64,000 bases of DNA. It comes from Agrobacterium larrymoorei (GTDB taxonomy: Bacteria > Pseudomonadota > Alphaproteobacteria > Rhizobiales > Rhizobiaceae). Of this stretch, positions 9,471 through 59,334 are shown piece after piece; the first letter of the stretch is position 1; each line of letters begins with the position of its first letter. The stretch lies in NCBI RefSeq assembly GCF_005145045.1, contig NZ_CP039691.1, positions 1,004,001-1,068,000 of the forward strand, given 5' to 3'. Under the pieces are notes generated by a model, which was given only the letters and a program-made list of their open reading frames with translations, did no database searches and was not told where the DNA came from. A program made the translations under genes and the position numbers.

Positions 9471-9938
9471 TTACTCGAACTCCAGAACCTTGCTTTCGAA
9501 GCTCACGACCGGTTGGCCGTGTTGATTGATGCCTTCGTTCAGCGTCGTGTTCAGCAGCAGTCCGGGGCGTGATGCGAGCGGGCGTGACGCGAGAAGCGTG
9601 GCGTAATATATCACATCATCTCCCGCATAGACCGGGCGGAGCCATTTCAGATTGCTGAAGCCGGGGGAAGGGCCGAGCTTGGGGGGCGCGATTCCTTCCG
9701 CCTGCAAGCGTTTCACCTCTTTGACCCAGTAATCGAGGAAGCATCTCATCCATGTCGCACTGGTCTGCCAACCGGAGGCGCACAGGCCTTCGAAAACCGA
9801 GCTTCTGGCCTCCTCTTCACTGAGATGAAACGGCTGGGGATCGAATTTCTCTGCATAGCGGGTGATGGATTCGGCTGAGAAATGAACGGTGCCGAGTTCC
9901 AGACGCTGGCCGAGCGGGTAGAGTTCTGTGAACTTCAT
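9471..9938 (-). CDS. MaoC-family hotdog dehydratase (second of a tandem pair)
   Basis: Single-hotdog MaoC-like protein (155 residues) of the (R)-specific enoyl-CoA hydratase superfamily. The conserved D-x(4)-H element is visible in KFDPQPFHLSEEEAR, followed by the hotdog helix GLCASGWQTSATWMRC. Start ATG at 9938 overlaps the stop of the upstream paralogue by four bases (ATGA), pointing to translational coupling and perhaps a heteromeric enzyme. The substrate is not evident. Confidence 0.85.
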   Translation of the reverse strand: MKFTELYPLGQRLELGTVHFSAESITRYAEKFDPQPFHLSEEEARSSVFEGLCASGWQTSATWMRCFLDYWVKEVKRLQAEGIAPPKLGPSPGFSNLKWLRPVYAGDDVIYYATLLASRPLASRPGLLLNTTLNEGINQHGQPVVSFESKVLEFE

Positions 9939-10390
9939 GCGGCTTTCTCCGCCGAAGTGGACAGCATGGCATTCAGTTCGGCAACACATACGGTCTCGCC
10001 GCGCTGGTTTTGCAACTCATGGCGAAGCTTGATGACGCCCATGCCCGGTCGTGATTTCGAAACGCGCTGCTCGATGACGGTGGATGTGCCGCTGAGGGTG
10101 TCGCCTGCCAGAACGGGTTTTTTCCACTCCACGAAATCGACGCCGAGGCCGGCTTGCGAGGGGGATTTACTGATATAGCTGTCCACCGTCATACGCATCA
10201 GTATGCCGCATGTGTGCCAGCCGGATGCGGCCAACCCACCGAGAATACTGGCCTTGCCTGCTTCTTCCGAGAGATGCATGGGCTGCGGATCGAACTCGGA
10301 TGCGAACTCGATGATCTCATCCGCCGTCACCACCTTCGGCCCCAGCGCAAAGCTGCGCCCCGGCGTAAAATCTTCGAAACTGTATTTCAC
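9935..10390 (-). CDS. MaoC-family hotdog dehydratase (first of a tandem pair)
   Basis: Paralogue of the following gene, 151 residues. It has EFDPQPMHLSEEAGK, with the catalytic Asp/His of the MaoC hydratase motif, and GLAASGWHTCGILMRM. The later KKPVLAGDTLSGTSTV matches the second MaoC signature (P-V-x-x-G-D-x-L). The two proteins share motif spacing and probably arose by duplication. No fatty-acid or PHA gene is adjacent to suggest a pathway. Confidence 0.85.
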   Translation of the reverse strand: MKYSFEDFTPGRSFALGPKVVTADEIIEFASEFDPQPMHLSEEAGKASILGGLAASGWHTCGILMRMTVDSYISKSPSQAGLGVDFVEWKKPVLAGDTLSGTSTVIEQRVSKSRPGMGVIKLRHELQNQRGETVCVAELNAMLSTSAEKAA

Positions 10391-53067: not shown

Positions 53068-53358
53068 TCAGAGATTGTCGTTTAGATATTCAAGAAATTT
53101 GGCGATGTTTTCCTCGTCGCGTTCATAGAAATTCCACTGGCCGACCTTGCGAGAGCGAACCAGACCGGCCGCCTGCAAGGCTGCGAGGTGGGAGGACACG
53201 GTGGATTGCGACAGGCCGCTGATTTCGAACTGATGCGCGCACACGCCCATGCTGAACGGATGCGCCTGGTTGAAGTGGTTCTCCGGCTCTTTGAGCCATT
53301 TGAGAAACTTCAGCCGCACCGGATGTGCAATCGCTTTCAGGACGTCTTCGGGTTTCAT
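53068..53358 (-). CDS. ArsR-family regulator, likely thiol-sensing
   Basis: 96-residue winged-helix protein: KAIAHPVRLKFLKWLKEP at the start, and the recognition helix region GLSQSTVSSHLAALQAAGLV. The usual metal-binding ELxVCDL motif is absent; only one Cys is present (MGVCAHQFE) just before the DNA-binding helices. A Cys at this place serves as an oxidation switch in redox-sensing ArsR proteins. It directly precedes the OYE gene. Sensing mode is inferred. Confidence 0.85.
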   Translation of the reverse strand: MKPEDVLKAIAHPVRLKFLKWLKEPENHFNQAHPFSMGVCAHQFEISGLSQSTVSSHLAALQAAGLVRSRKVGQWNFYERDEENIAKFLEYLNDNL

Positions 53359-53436
53359 CTCATTCCTGCATATCTAAACATAACGATACTTATATCGAGA
53401 TTTTTCGATATCAAGGAAAGCGAGCATATTTTTTGC

Positions 53437-53533
53437 AAAAAAAAGGCCGCTGGATTTCTCCGCGGCCCGACAGTTTTGAAGGTCATAACCTCCAGAGGGG
53501 AACAGCACTCGACAGCAAGGAGCGTCGAGGGCC
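53437..53533 (-). ncRNA. AbcR-type (alpha-r15) sRNA, distal copy
   Basis: Minus-strand gene of about 97 nt. The promoter has TTGTTC, 17 bp, then CATATC. The 5' hairpin CTCGAC-GCTCCTTGCT-GTCGAG exposes a CUCCUU anti-Shine-Dalgarno loop. A central CTGTTCCCCTCTGGAGG block is identical in the second copy. The 3' end is a terminator GGGCCGCGG / CAGCGGCC followed by eight T. The location (ArsR, tandem copies, then vtlR/lsrB and trxB) matches the AbcR1/AbcR2 locus as I remember it from rhizobia. Start is estimated to a few bases. Confidence 0.8.
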
Positions 53534-53617
53534 AACCCAGATATGGCGCTGGAATGCCTTCGGAACAAGGGTGATTTATCTAAATAAAGCAGCGTGTAAG
53601 GGAAAATTATTGCGGGT

Positions 53618-53736
53618 AAAAAAAGAGGGCCACCAGATTGCTCCAGGGCCCTTGTAAGTGTGAAGGTCAAAAAACCTCCAGAGGGGAACAGCTGATGCGG
53701 CGGAACTGGGAGGAAAAGCCGCCATGTGCATCAACT
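53618..53736 (-). ncRNA. AbcR-type (alpha-r15) sRNA, vtlR-proximal copy
   Basis: Minus-strand gene of about 119 nt. Promoter TTGAAG, 17 bp, CATATC, the same spacing and -10 as in the other copy. The 5' hairpin pairs GTTGATGC with GCATCAGC and shows a loop with CTTTTCCTCCCAG (anti-Shine-Dalgarno CUCCC). The shared CTGTTCCCCTCTGGAGG block follows, then the terminator AGGGCC / GGCCCT with CTTTTTTT. AbcR sRNAs silence ABC-transporter and other mRNAs with Hfq in Agrobacterium, Sinorhizobium and Brucella. I cannot assign which copy is AbcR1 or AbcR2. Confidence 0.85.
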
Positions 53737-53856
53737 GAGTGCGATATGCTGATTTTTTGTGCTTTCTTCAACTCTTTTTTGTGCAGGACAGGCATGCATT
53801 GTGCGCAACGCTGTCTTTACCTGTCACATTTATTTCGCAAATCGTCAGCCAAAGAA

Positions 53857-53893
53857 AAGGAGATGAGGACAGGTCAGCGTCTCTCATCTCCTT
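53857..53893 (-). terminator. Terminator of the vtlR-like gene
   Basis: Perfect 11-bp stem AAGGAGATGAG / CTCATCTCCTT, followed on the minus strand by TTTTCTTT. It separates the LysR gene from the sRNA gene downstream. Confidence 0.85.
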
Positions 53894-53930
53894 GATTTGA
53901 CAGGCTTCTTGATTGCCTCAAAGGCAGGAA

Positions 53931-54851: not shown

Positions 54852-55826
54852 TTATTCGGCAGCGACAGCAAGCGGCGCCTGCGCCGCCAGAAAACGTTCC
54901 GCTTCGAGTGCTGCCATGCAGCCCATGCCGGCGGCGGTAATGGCCTGACGGTAAGTATCGTCCGTCACGTCGCCAGCGGCAAAGATGCCTTCGACATCGG
55001 TTGCGGTGGAATCGGGAGCCGTCCACATGTAGCCATTCGGCTTCAGCTTCAGCTTGCCCTTGAACAGTTCCACGGCAGGCGCATGGCCGATCGCCACGAA
55101 AACGCCGTGGATCGGCATTTCGGTGACCTCGCCCGTGTTGACGTTGCGCAGCTTTGCGCCGGTGACGGAAGGCGGCATTGGCGGCTTGGCAGGTGTGCCG
55201 GTGATTTCCGCGACTTCGGTGTTCCAGAGAATTTTGACATTCTCCTTGGCGAAGATGCGTTCCTGAAGGATTTTCTCCGAGCGGAAGCTATCGCGGCGAT
55301 GCACGACGGTTACCGTCTTTGCGATATTGGCGAGGTAAAGCGCTTCTTCGACAGCCGAATTGCCGCCGCCGACTACGATCACATCCCGGTTGCGATAGAA
55401 GAAACCATCACAGGTGGCGCAGGCGGAAACGCCAAAGCCCTGAAAGTGCTGTTCGCTTTCAATGCCCAGCCACTTGGCCTTCGCGCCGGTGGAGATGATC
55501 AGCGTATCGGCAGTCCAGACCGCGCCGGAATCCGTTTTCACGGTGAAGGGGCGGCTGGTCGTTTCGACTTCGGTGACGAGATCGTTGACGATTTCAGCAC
55601 CCACATGCTGCGCCTGCTTGAGCATCTGATCCATCAGGAACGGGCCCTGAATGGGGTCTGCATAGCCGGGGTAGTTTTCCACGTCGGTCGTGATCATCAG
55701 CTGGCCACCCTGTTCCATGCCGGCGATCAATACCGGCTGCAGCATGGCGCGTGCAGCATAGATTGCGGCAGTGTAACCGGCGGGGCCGGAACCGATGATC
55801 AAAACCTTTGTATGGCGGGCGGACAT
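54852..55826 (-). CDS. trxB: Thioredoxin-disulfide reductase
   Basis: 324-residue NADPH-dependent flavoprotein that keeps thioredoxin reduced. FAD-binding IIGSGPAGYTAAIYAARA is near residue 10, the redox-active CATC motif (VSACATCDGFFY) near residue 140, the NADPH site VVGGGNSAVEEALYLA, and GIFAAGDVTDDTYRQA near the C-terminus. It is co-directional with the vtlR-like gene and divergent from lrp, as in other rhizobia. Confidence 0.97.
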   Translation of the reverse strand: MSARHTKVLIIGSGPAGYTAAIYAARAMLQPVLIAGMEQGGQLMITTDVENYPGYADPIQGPFLMDQMLKQAQHVGAEIVNDLVTEVETTSRPFTVKTDSGAVWTADTLIISTGAKAKWLGIESEQHFQGFGVSACATCDGFFYRNRDVIVVGGGNSAVEEALYLANIAKTVTVVHRRDSFRSEKILQERIFAKENVKILWNTEVAEITGTPAKPPMPPSVTGAKLRNVNTGEVTEMPIHGVFVAIGHAPAVELFKGKLKLKPNGYMWTAPDSTATDVEGIFAAGDVTDDTYRQAITAAGMGCMAALEAERFLAAQAPLAVAAE

Positions 55827-57552: not shown

Positions 57553-58425
57553 TCAATAAGAACTCTTTGCAATATTTAGAAGATAAGCTCCGTATTGGCT
57601 CTTTCCGTATTTGCTCGCGATCTCCTCAAATTGATCCGTCGAGATGAAGCCTTTTCGCCAGGCAATTTCCTCTGGGCAGCAGATTTTGATTCCCTGGCGC
57701 TTTTGAAGCGTGCCAACAAATTCACTTGCTTCGAGAAGGCTATCCGGTGTCCCGGTATCAAGCCATGCGAAGCCTCGCCCAAGTAGTTCGACGTTCAATT
57801 TTCCGCGCTCGAGATAAGCTTTGTTGACGTCCGTGATTTCAAGCTCACCTCGGGCTGAGGGTTTGAGATTTGCTGCGATATCCACCACGTTCTCGTCGTA
57901 AAAATAGAGACCTGTAACAGCCCAGTTTGACTTGGGAGACGTCGGCTTTTCTTCAATTGAAACGGCTCTTCTGCTTTCATCGAATTCCACGACGCCGTAT
58001 CTTTGAGGATCGCTTACGTGATAGGCGAAAACAGTAGCTCCATCAAAAGCTCCTGCCGCTCGTGTCAGTATTTCGGTCATTCCATGGCCATAAAAGATAT
58101 TATCGCCAAGTATTAAGCACGACGGACCGCCGGCGACAAAGTCTGCTCCAAGTATATAAGCTTGAGCCAAGCCATCTGGCGATGCCTGAATGGAATAGGA
58201 AATCGAAATGCCCCAATCAGAGCCATCGCCGAGCAAACGCTGGAAATTCCCTATGTCGGAGGGGGTCGAAATCAGGAGAATGTCCCGTATATCCGCCAAC
58301 ATCAAAGTCGACAGTGAATAATATATCATCGGCTTGTCATAGACCGGGATCAGTTGCTTGGAGGTAACGAGCGTCATGGGATGTAGACGTGTTCCATTTC
58401 CCCCGGCCAGAATAATGCCTTTCAC
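57553..58425 (-). CDS. rfbA: Glucose-1-phosphate thymidylyltransferase
   Basis: First enzyme of dTDP-L-rhamnose synthesis: glucose 1-phosphate plus dTTP to dTDP-glucose. 290 residues. GGNGTRLHP at the start is the nucleotidyltransferase signature, then [16 protein letters not shown] and GDNIFYGHG. The GTG at 58425 is chosen since AAGGAGA (58434-58440) lies 8 bases ahead; ATG 58446 is further from a ribosome site. It is 21 bp from rfbD. Confidence 0.95.
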
Positions 58426-58446
58426 GTCGCAGTTCTCCTTTTGCAT

Positions 58447-59334
58447 TTACTGAATAAGTTTTTTTACCGCTATTTGAACGGACGCTTTCCAGTCCGGCAA
58501 TCTTACCCCGTGGAAGGTGTCGATCTTTTGGCAATTCAAGCATGAATTAGGTGGCCGTCGAGCTGGCGTAGGAAACTCTGCTGTCGTGATGCGCCGAACT
58601 TTAGCGTAAGGACCGCCGATCTTCCTAGAAACTGAAAATATCTCTTCCGCAAAGGTTGCCCAGTCTGTGGCGCCTTGACCACATAAATGGAAGATACCGC
58701 GCATGTCTACGTTCGCTGAAGAGAGCATGTTCTTTGCAACAGACAGAACACCGTCCGCGAGATCAAGCGCCGATGTCGGGCTACCTCTCTGATCTGACAC
58801 CACGCTTATCTCATCACGGTTGGTGGCCAGATTGAGCATCGTCTTCAAAAAGTTTTTGCCATAAGTGCTATAAACCCATGAGGTACGTAAAATTGCGTGA
58901 TCTGCCCCAGATGAAATAAGTTTCCGTTCTCCCTCTCTTTTCGATCTGCCATAAACGTTGATTGGGTTGGTGATCTCCGATTCGGTGTATGCGCTTTTGC
59001 TAGTGCCGTCGAAGACATAGTCTGTCGAAAGATGGATGACCGGAACGCCAATCTTTCGCGCTGTTTCTCCTATCAGGCCGATTGCTTGCGAATTTACCGC
59101 ATAAGCCAAGGGCTGTTGGGATTCAGCTTGATCAACTGCGGTATATGCAGCAGCCGAGATGATTAAATCTGGCCGAGCCGCCAACAAGCTTTTTTCGATA
59201 GTATCGACTACCGATAAATCCAGTTGGGGACGTCCCAAGGCGACAACCTCAATATCGTTTCGCTCGCGAGAGAGCTCGACTAGTGCCGTTACTACTTGGC
59301 CAGTGTAACCGGTTGTGACATAACGAACTGCCAT
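58447..59334 (-). CDS. rfbD: dTDP-4-dehydrorhamnose reductase
   Basis: Final step of dTDP-L-rhamnose synthesis. 295 residues. N-terminal nucleotide site is a variant (RYVTTGYTGQVVTALV instead of GxxGQLG). Signatures: DLIISAAAYTAVDQAE, VIHLSTDYVFDG, NVYGRSKREGE with the YxxxK pair. The gene is AT-rich relative to the window average. It overlaps none but is 3 bp from rfbB. Confidence 0.94.
   Translation of the reverse strand: MAVRYVTTGYTGQVVTALVELSRERNDIEVVALGRPQLDLSVVDTIEKSLLAARPDLIISAAAYTAVDQAESQQPLAYAVNSQAIGLIGETARKIGVPVIHLSTDYVFDGTSKSAYTESEITNPINVYGRSKREGERKLISSGADHAILRTSWVYSTYGKNFLKTMLNLATNRDEISVVSDQRGSPTSALDLADGVLSVAKNMLSSANVDMRGIFHLCGQGATDWATFAEEIFSVSRKIGGPYAKVRRITTAEFPTPARRPPNSCLNCQKIDTFHGVRLPDWKASVQIAVKKLIQ

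Follow-up and report, generated by a model that had tools for sequence, protein, structure and literature searches.

We propose that the redox-sensing regulator LsrB (VtlR) of the plant-associated bacterium Agrobacterium larrymoorei activates only one, abcR1, of the two small RNA (sRNA) genes that stand in tandem beside its own gene, and that the second gene, abcR2, is transcribed independently, most likely via the heat-shock-type sigma factor RpoH1; we hold this reading, with a two-seed AbcR1 and a linker-seed AbcR2, to be highly probable. LsrB would bind GCAT-N3-TG-N3-T at -61 to -49 of abcR1. AbcR1, together with Hfq, would then silence many transporter mRNAs by means of two anti-Shine-Dalgarno (anti-SD) seeds, one in the 5' loop and one in the linker (UUCCCCUC), which would pair with ribosome-binding sites. 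AbcR2 reliably retains the linker seed only, and may act as a weaker, stress-timed regulator of a subset of these targets. A known circuit is thus transferred to A. larrymoorei and sharpened, with one pair of RNAs and two inputs, redox through LsrB and probably stress through another sigma factor. We infer the dependence on LsrB, on RpoH1 and on Hfq, as well as the targets, from work in relatives; Hfq binding and repression of ABC-transporter mRNAs by AbcR are reported in relatives (PMC7143759), and two anti-SD seeds are described for the AbcR RNAs of Sinorhizobium meliloti (PMC8844928).

Family membership, synteny, the operator, the promoter contrast and the conservation or loss of seeds can be read directly from the DNA compared here. 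A first-pass annotation of the window (the whole stretch of 64,000 nucleotides analysed) had placed two minus-strand units in this region and suggested a covariance search with the ar15/AbcR model. The search, now run, matches both units at the positions assigned to them: the upstream unit (53736-53621) scores 110.7 bits against ar15 (Rfam RF02345; E 1.8e-22) and the downstream unit (53533-53439) 55.2 bits (E 1.6e-8), at a gathering score of 40, and these are the sole two sites in the window above any Rfam gathering score. Weak matches to Trp_leader, BjrC68, RcsR1, SSRC10 and BSR0739 between 53000 and 54000 are all far under the cut-offs. The block CTGTTCCCCTCTGGAGG, described earlier as common to both units, is exact at 53691-53675 and 53505-53489. 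In both the minimum-free-energy and the centroid prediction, each RNA folds into three stem-loops, with a terminator-like hairpin at the 3' end followed by a U tail, and none of 200 shuffled sequences is equally stable (z -3.55 for AbcR1 and -3.53 for AbcR2). Both folds have the three stem-loops and closing Rho-independent terminator of the family, although a generic sigma-70/terminator scan run over 53380-53930 reported no terminator-like site and neither unit's promoter. Alphaproteobacterial promoters deviate from the consensus used by such a scan and the stems are bulged, so that the promoter calls given below depend on comparison between genomes. One long read-through transcript was considered and rejected, because a promoter-like site and a terminator hairpin can be assigned to each unit separately, even though both kinds of signal are absent from the output of the simple scan.

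The genes of the region are all on the minus strand, in the order trxB-lsrB-abcR1-abcR2-arsR (Table 1), and the same order is reported for Agrobacterium tumefaciens C58, in which the pair lies between vtlR (atu2186) and arsR (atu2187) (PMC7486931). Amino-acid identity of the LsrB protein is 100% with A. larrymoorei FPH-AR2 and with one Agrobacterium metagenome-assembled genome, and 98% with A. tumefaciens B6. In A. tumefaciens LsrB, Cys 144, 236, 244 and 273 undergo reversible thiol modification (PMC11975290); all four redox cysteines are present in the window's protein, which adjoins trxB. Every one of the 39 genomes compared within the genus has a strong and a weak ar15 match side by side, with further copies in 18 of them, and a family-wide draw, run with stricter filters, gave an ar15 match in 114 of 151 genomes (above the cut-off in 99 of 151). 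Rfam, synteny and this tandem arrangement together bear out the earlier identification of the units as AbcR1/AbcR2 next to lsrB/vtlR, and the pair is a conserved, well-studied and already known system in a new species. For the comparisons that follow, 81 lsrB loci were used, namely the window and 80 named loci (L033-L112). At least one shared block lies downstream of lsrB in all 81 and two blocks in 72; the other nine (L059-L062, L064, L069, L071, L072 and L081) have a single block and no second unit.

Table 1. Features of the lsrB-abcR region, in positions of the window.
Feature	Position	Strand	Remarks
arsR-type regulator gene, downstream of abcR2	53068..53358	-	NCBIfam NF033788, 59.2 bits (cut-off 55)
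abcR2, ar15 sRNA, downstream unit	53439..53533	-	RF02345, 55.2 bits; fold z -3.53; predicted 5' end ~53533
Shared block with second anti-SD seed (UUCCCCUC), abcR2	53489..53505	-	Exact
CUCCUU, 5' loop of abcR2	53517..53522	-	Present, not conserved
abcR2 promoter, CTTGTT-N17-CCATAT, possibly RpoH1-type	53541..53569	-	CTTG-N18..20-CCATAT in group loci
abcR1, ar15 sRNA, upstream unit	53621..53736	-	RF02345, full model 1-112; fold z -3.55; predicted 5' end ~53736
Shared block with second anti-SD seed (UUCCCCUC), abcR1	53675..53691	-	Exact
First anti-SD seed, CUCCC in UUUUCCUCCCAG, 5' loop of abcR1	53708..53712	-	CTCCC in 81/81 unit-1 loci
abcR1 promoter, TTGAAG-N17-CATATC	53743..53771	-	Sequence and conservation; absent from generic sigma-70 scan list
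LsrB/VtlR operator of abcR1, GCATGCCTGTCCT, exact GCAT-N3-TG-N3-T	53785..53797	-	Sequence match; predicted
lsrB/vtlR, LysR-type regulator, 300 aa	53931..54833	-	Cys144, 236, 244, 273
trxB, thioredoxin-disulfide reductase	54852..55826	-	NCBIfam TIGR01292, 395.4 bits (cut-off 343.45)

The two RNAs differ in their 5' regions. The Agrobacterium group comprises 25 loci, namely the window plus L033-L056, which rank closest by LsrB sequence (some of them labelled Rhizobium or Rhizobiales), and CTCCC is present in the AbcR1 5' region of every one. In the AbcR2 5' region CTCCC occurs at only 4 of 25. When five anti-SD 5-mers are counted together, 6 of 25 have at least one, against 5.5 expected from shuffling of these regions, and the CUCCUU of the window is among the six. 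All 25 retain the linker seed UUCCCCUC in AbcR2. Of the two anti-SD loops annotated earlier, CUCCC (unit 1, 53712-53708) and CUCCUU (unit 2, 53522-53517) are both present, but the second is not a conserved element, anti-SD 5-mers occurring there at the chance rate. A new target seed in unit 2 was rejected for the same reason. The stem that carries the AbcR2 loop is nevertheless kept: with one locus retained for each distinct 3' arm (14 arms), own arms form 6.79 of 7 pairs against 5.85 for swapped ones, a value reached in none of 5000 permutations, and over 24 distinct arm pairs (25 loci) the figures are 6.88 and 6.16 (0 of 2000 permutations), the window's own stem forming 6 of 7. This arm-swapping permutation was used in place of a MAFFT alignment of the 5' arms (22 of 25 loci, without L051, L052 and L054), which had misplaced arms. 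By these comparisons the AbcR2 5' region is a predicted hairpin that is kept around a seed that is not. The absence of motif M1 from C58 AbcR2 has been suggested as the cause of the weakness of that RNA (PMC7486931), and the putative loss of M1 holds for the Agrobacterium group.

The first-pass annotation had proposed that the difference in loops split the target sets of the two RNAs. Acquisition of different 5' loop seeds (CUCCUU versus CUCCC) is very unlikely to have done so: the window does contain both motifs in differing loops, but with anti-SD 5-mers of AbcR2 at 6 of 25 group loci where 5.5 are expected, a hairpin kept without its seed speaks against a split through new loops, and in C58 the reported effect of deleting AbcR2 was a change in 8 genes, compared with almost 100 when AbcR1 was deleted (PMC7486931). 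The difference is better read as a loss, in keeping with the chance-rate 5-mers of unit 2 and the missing M1 of C58, and AbcR2 would rather be a reduced sibling of AbcR1 than one with a new target set. That it is a decaying duplicate, with no function of its own in Agrobacterium, is also very unlikely. Such decay would fit a gene that has neither an LsrB operator nor a conserved first seed, and whose deletion alters few genes in C58 (PMC7486931); it is hard to reconcile with a promoter combination and a second seed retained in 25 of 25 group loci, with compensating arms in the 5' stem and with a tandem arrangement in 39 of 39 genomes.

The promoters of the two units had been described as alike. 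Both do have a CATATC (53748-53743 and 53545-53540), with TTGAAG and TTGTTC, respectively, 17 bp upstream, but only unit 1 has an LsrB operator. Counted from the predicted start of abcR1, this operator lies at -61 to -49, with a conserved extension to about 53779; consensus and position follow PMC8844928, where they are given for PabcR1 of S. meliloti, and PMC7486931. All 81 unit-1 promoters have the box with at most one mismatch in its seven fixed positions, including 25 of 25 in the Agrobacterium group, and it is exact in 61 of 81; when 20,000 positions were drawn at random from this DNA, 2.4% had a box with at most one mismatch. Upstream of unit 2 it was found in none of the 25 Agrobacterium-group loci, at least two of the seven positions differing in every case, the window included. 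The second promoter is marked by CTTG-N18..20-CCATAT, which all 25 group loci have at unit 2; at unit 1 none of these 25 has it, nor do more than 2 of the 56 other loci, bearing in mind that the 25 promoters share ancestry and do not amount to 25 independent observations. CCATAT alone is also common at unit 1 (13 of 25 promoters in the group, 52 of 56 elsewhere) and CTTG also opens the RpoD consensus published for PabcR1 of S. meliloti (PMC8844928), so that only the combination separates the units. The identical CATATC boxes thus mask two promoters that, to judge from their sequences, are differently controlled.

Experiments in C58 point in the same direction: deletion of vtlR is reported to abolish AbcR1 and to leave AbcR2 unchanged, and VtlR binds PabcR1, PabcR2 DNA being no competitor for VtlR (PMC7486931). 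It is very likely, given these experiments and the exact operator of abcR1, that the LysR gene controls at least one of the sRNAs, as had been supposed; going by the operators, it should control only the upstream unit. Control of both sRNAs by LsrB, the picture implied by similar promoters, is the least likely alternative, for although the box is present with at most one mismatch in 17 of the 47 second units that lie outside the Agrobacterium group, all 17 with CTCCC, the unit-2 box has at least two mismatches in 25 of 25 group loci, the window among them, and in C58 AbcR2 is reported to be unaffected by the vtlR deletion and PabcR2 to fail to compete (PMC7486931).

For abcR2 under its own promoter, an RpoH-type sigma factor is likely, but the assignment is weak. 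In S. meliloti AbcR1 is placed under LsrB and AbcR2 under RpoH1 (PMC8844928), and S. meliloti is the only species for which the passages cited here show RpoH dependence of abcR2; the abcR2 -35 region of the window agrees with the RpoH1 boxes, CTTGAA-N16-CCTATAT, in CTTG only, and CCATAT is common at unit 1 as well. LsrB control of S. meliloti AbcR1 is itself disputed, with no change reported in one study (PMC7486931) and strict dependence in another (PMC8844928).

The second units outside the Agrobacterium group are of two kinds. The 17 with the box belong to L074, L085, L090, L091, L093-L097, L099-L102, L107 and L109-L111; each carries CTCCC in its 5' region and lacks the CTTG-CCATAT promoter, which makes the pair there look like two AbcR1 genes. 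A third core is present in L091. Among the 30 second units without the box, CTTG-N18..20-CCATAT is present in 23 and missing in 7.

Compared with C58, the window has in common the gene order, an abcR1 with VtlR input and an abcR2 without it (both predicted here), and an AbcR2 that in C58 is said to be without M1 (PMC7486931); CUCCUU in the AbcR2 5' loop is a feature of the present strain, and so is a third ar15 copy on a plasmid-like replicon, C58 having been compared at its chromosomal pair. S. meliloti shares the tandem beside lsrB, the LsrB box at -61 to -49 and an RpoH1-type PabcR2 (putative here), but both of its RNAs are described with identical pairs of anti-SD seeds (PMC8844928), whereas here AbcR2 does not conserve the first of the two. 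In Brucella abortus one of two sRNAs is likewise under VtlR (PMC7486931); unlike in A. larrymoorei, its abcR genes are on different chromosomes and VtlR activates abcR2 (PMC7486931, PMC4211561).

The third ar15 gene of the genome lies on contig C4 (404,101 bases) at 58396-58505, positions 9897-10006 of locus L113, and scores 112.6 bits; it has an exact LsrB box in its promoter and both seeds. We call this contig Ti-like because a single match of 100% identity to A. larrymoorei pTiAF3.44 covers 88% of a 19.9-kb stretch around the copy. BLAST searches returned 383 plasmid records for a 501-base stretch around the C4 copy, some matching only the neighbouring DUF3800 gene, and 371 for the window's intergenic pair. 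From these lists 27 record stretches (L114-L140) were taken, of which 20 were typed as conjugative, 1 as mobilizable and 6 as non-mobilizable; as the searches were seeded with the copies of this strain, the set is not random. All 22 loci scanned (L113-L134) have an Rfam ar15 match. Counting C4 and leaving out L117, a duplicate of L113, there are 28 distinct extrachromosomal copies, 26 of which have an exact LsrB box near the usual place; it is missing from L131, a Labrenzia locus, and from one of the L135 copies, the second. Six loci (L128-L131, L137 and L138) had been found through matches ending short of the operator, and five of these still have the box. CTCCC is present in 28 of 28 copies and the second seed is intact in 25 (L120, L130 and L134 differ). 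The plasmid copies, such as those of pTiAF3.44, pTiS4 and Rhizobium etli p42d, belong to the same Rfam family as the chromosomal pair and retain the LsrB operator and the first seed; they differ from it in having no lsrB annotated alongside, in forming a separate lineage and in lying often near helicase, ParB-domain or DUF1419 genes.

The separate lineage was recovered in two trees. Tree 1, with 98 rows (the window, alternate lsrB loci and, with L117 omitted, 20 plasmid copies), placed 19 of the 20 plasmid copies in one group (99/96). Tree 2, built from the window, every third lsrB locus and the 28 extrachromosomal copies, had 25 of the 28 together on the same side of a branch with 99/99 support, the exceptions being L131 and the two L135 copies; its bootstrap is unsettled, fuzzy matching shifted some anchors by 1-2 bases, and the long-branch chromosomal abcR2 rows L084 and L108 fall inside the plasmid group. 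Hosts of this group come from seven Rhizobiales genera, Agrobacterium, Allorhizobium, Rhizobium, Sinorhizobium/Ensifer, Mesorhizobium, Aminobacter and Shinella. A giant helicase/methylase gene (labelled lactate dehydrogenase in some records), a ParB-domain gene or a DUF1419/DUF3085/DUF3991 gene accompanies the copy in 16 of 24 annotated stretches; the other 8 have none of these, and 2 of them (L115 and L116) hold conjugation genes.

A conservation profile was anchored on the box (at most one mismatch, L131 left out), which makes identity at its seven fixed positions partly a matter of construction; this does not apply to the GCACAA that follows. Across 19 box-anchored plasmid copies, conservation reaches 95-100% in GCACAA but averages 51% over the 20 bases upstream and 67% over the promoter core. 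Conservation of this extension against drifting flanks points to selection on the operator. The LsrB operator also seems to be longer than published, GCAT-N3-TG-N3-TGCACAA being nearly invariant in the window (53779-53797) and in plasmid loci L113-L133.

We put forward, as a putative and novel lead, the hypothesis of a plasmid-carried AbcR wired to the redox regulator of its host. It is conceivable, though we would sooner doubt it than rely on it, that Rhizobiales plasmids, mostly conjugative among those examined and including the strain's own Ti-like one, carry a distinct AbcR1 lineage selected to obey the host's LsrB, since the operator with TGCACAA is nearly invariant in an otherwise drifting promoter and the seeds are largely kept. 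An arriving plasmid would add an LsrB-driven AbcR to the cell and so lower the uptake of particular nutrients; in agrobacteria, less GABA uptake would mean less quenching of the quorum signal, favouring the plasmid's own transfer. In C58, AbcR1 lowers Atu2422, a GABA-binding protein, an effect proposed to limit quenching of the quorum signal for Ti transfer (PMC4231840), and a plasmid copy that obeys LsrB would add to the same effect. Extra copies as such are already known, as a review counts three AbcR homologues in S. meliloti (PMC7143759).

Among the titles and abstract openings listed by searches of the open literature on AbcR, plasmids and rhizobial sRNAs, none concerned a plasmid AbcR lineage, the papers likeliest to mention one lying outside that search; a survey of ar15 RNAs reportedly includes plasmid members. 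If the hypothesis is true, mobile plasmids carry an sRNA tied to the redox regulator of the host and adjust host metabolism with it. This lineage is the part worth following and would then matter more than the pair in the window; it supplies a concrete operator and named plasmids as test material, and it is relevant to deletion studies in which strains with such copies lose their chromosomal abcR genes alone.

Two further observations concern the plasmid records. L135 (NZ_CP022567.1), a 408-kb record labelled as a plasmid, has a trxB-vtlR-abcR-arsR locus that resembles the chromosomal one, so the plasmid label may be wrong or the locus may have moved. Between the plasmid AbcR gene and the DUF3800 gene downstream of it is an Rfam motif, the DUF3800-VI RNA (RF02915), about 113-115 bases from AbcR, at 9732-9783 in L113, 9418-9469 in L117 and 6285-6336 in L118, where a small hypothetical gene intervenes.
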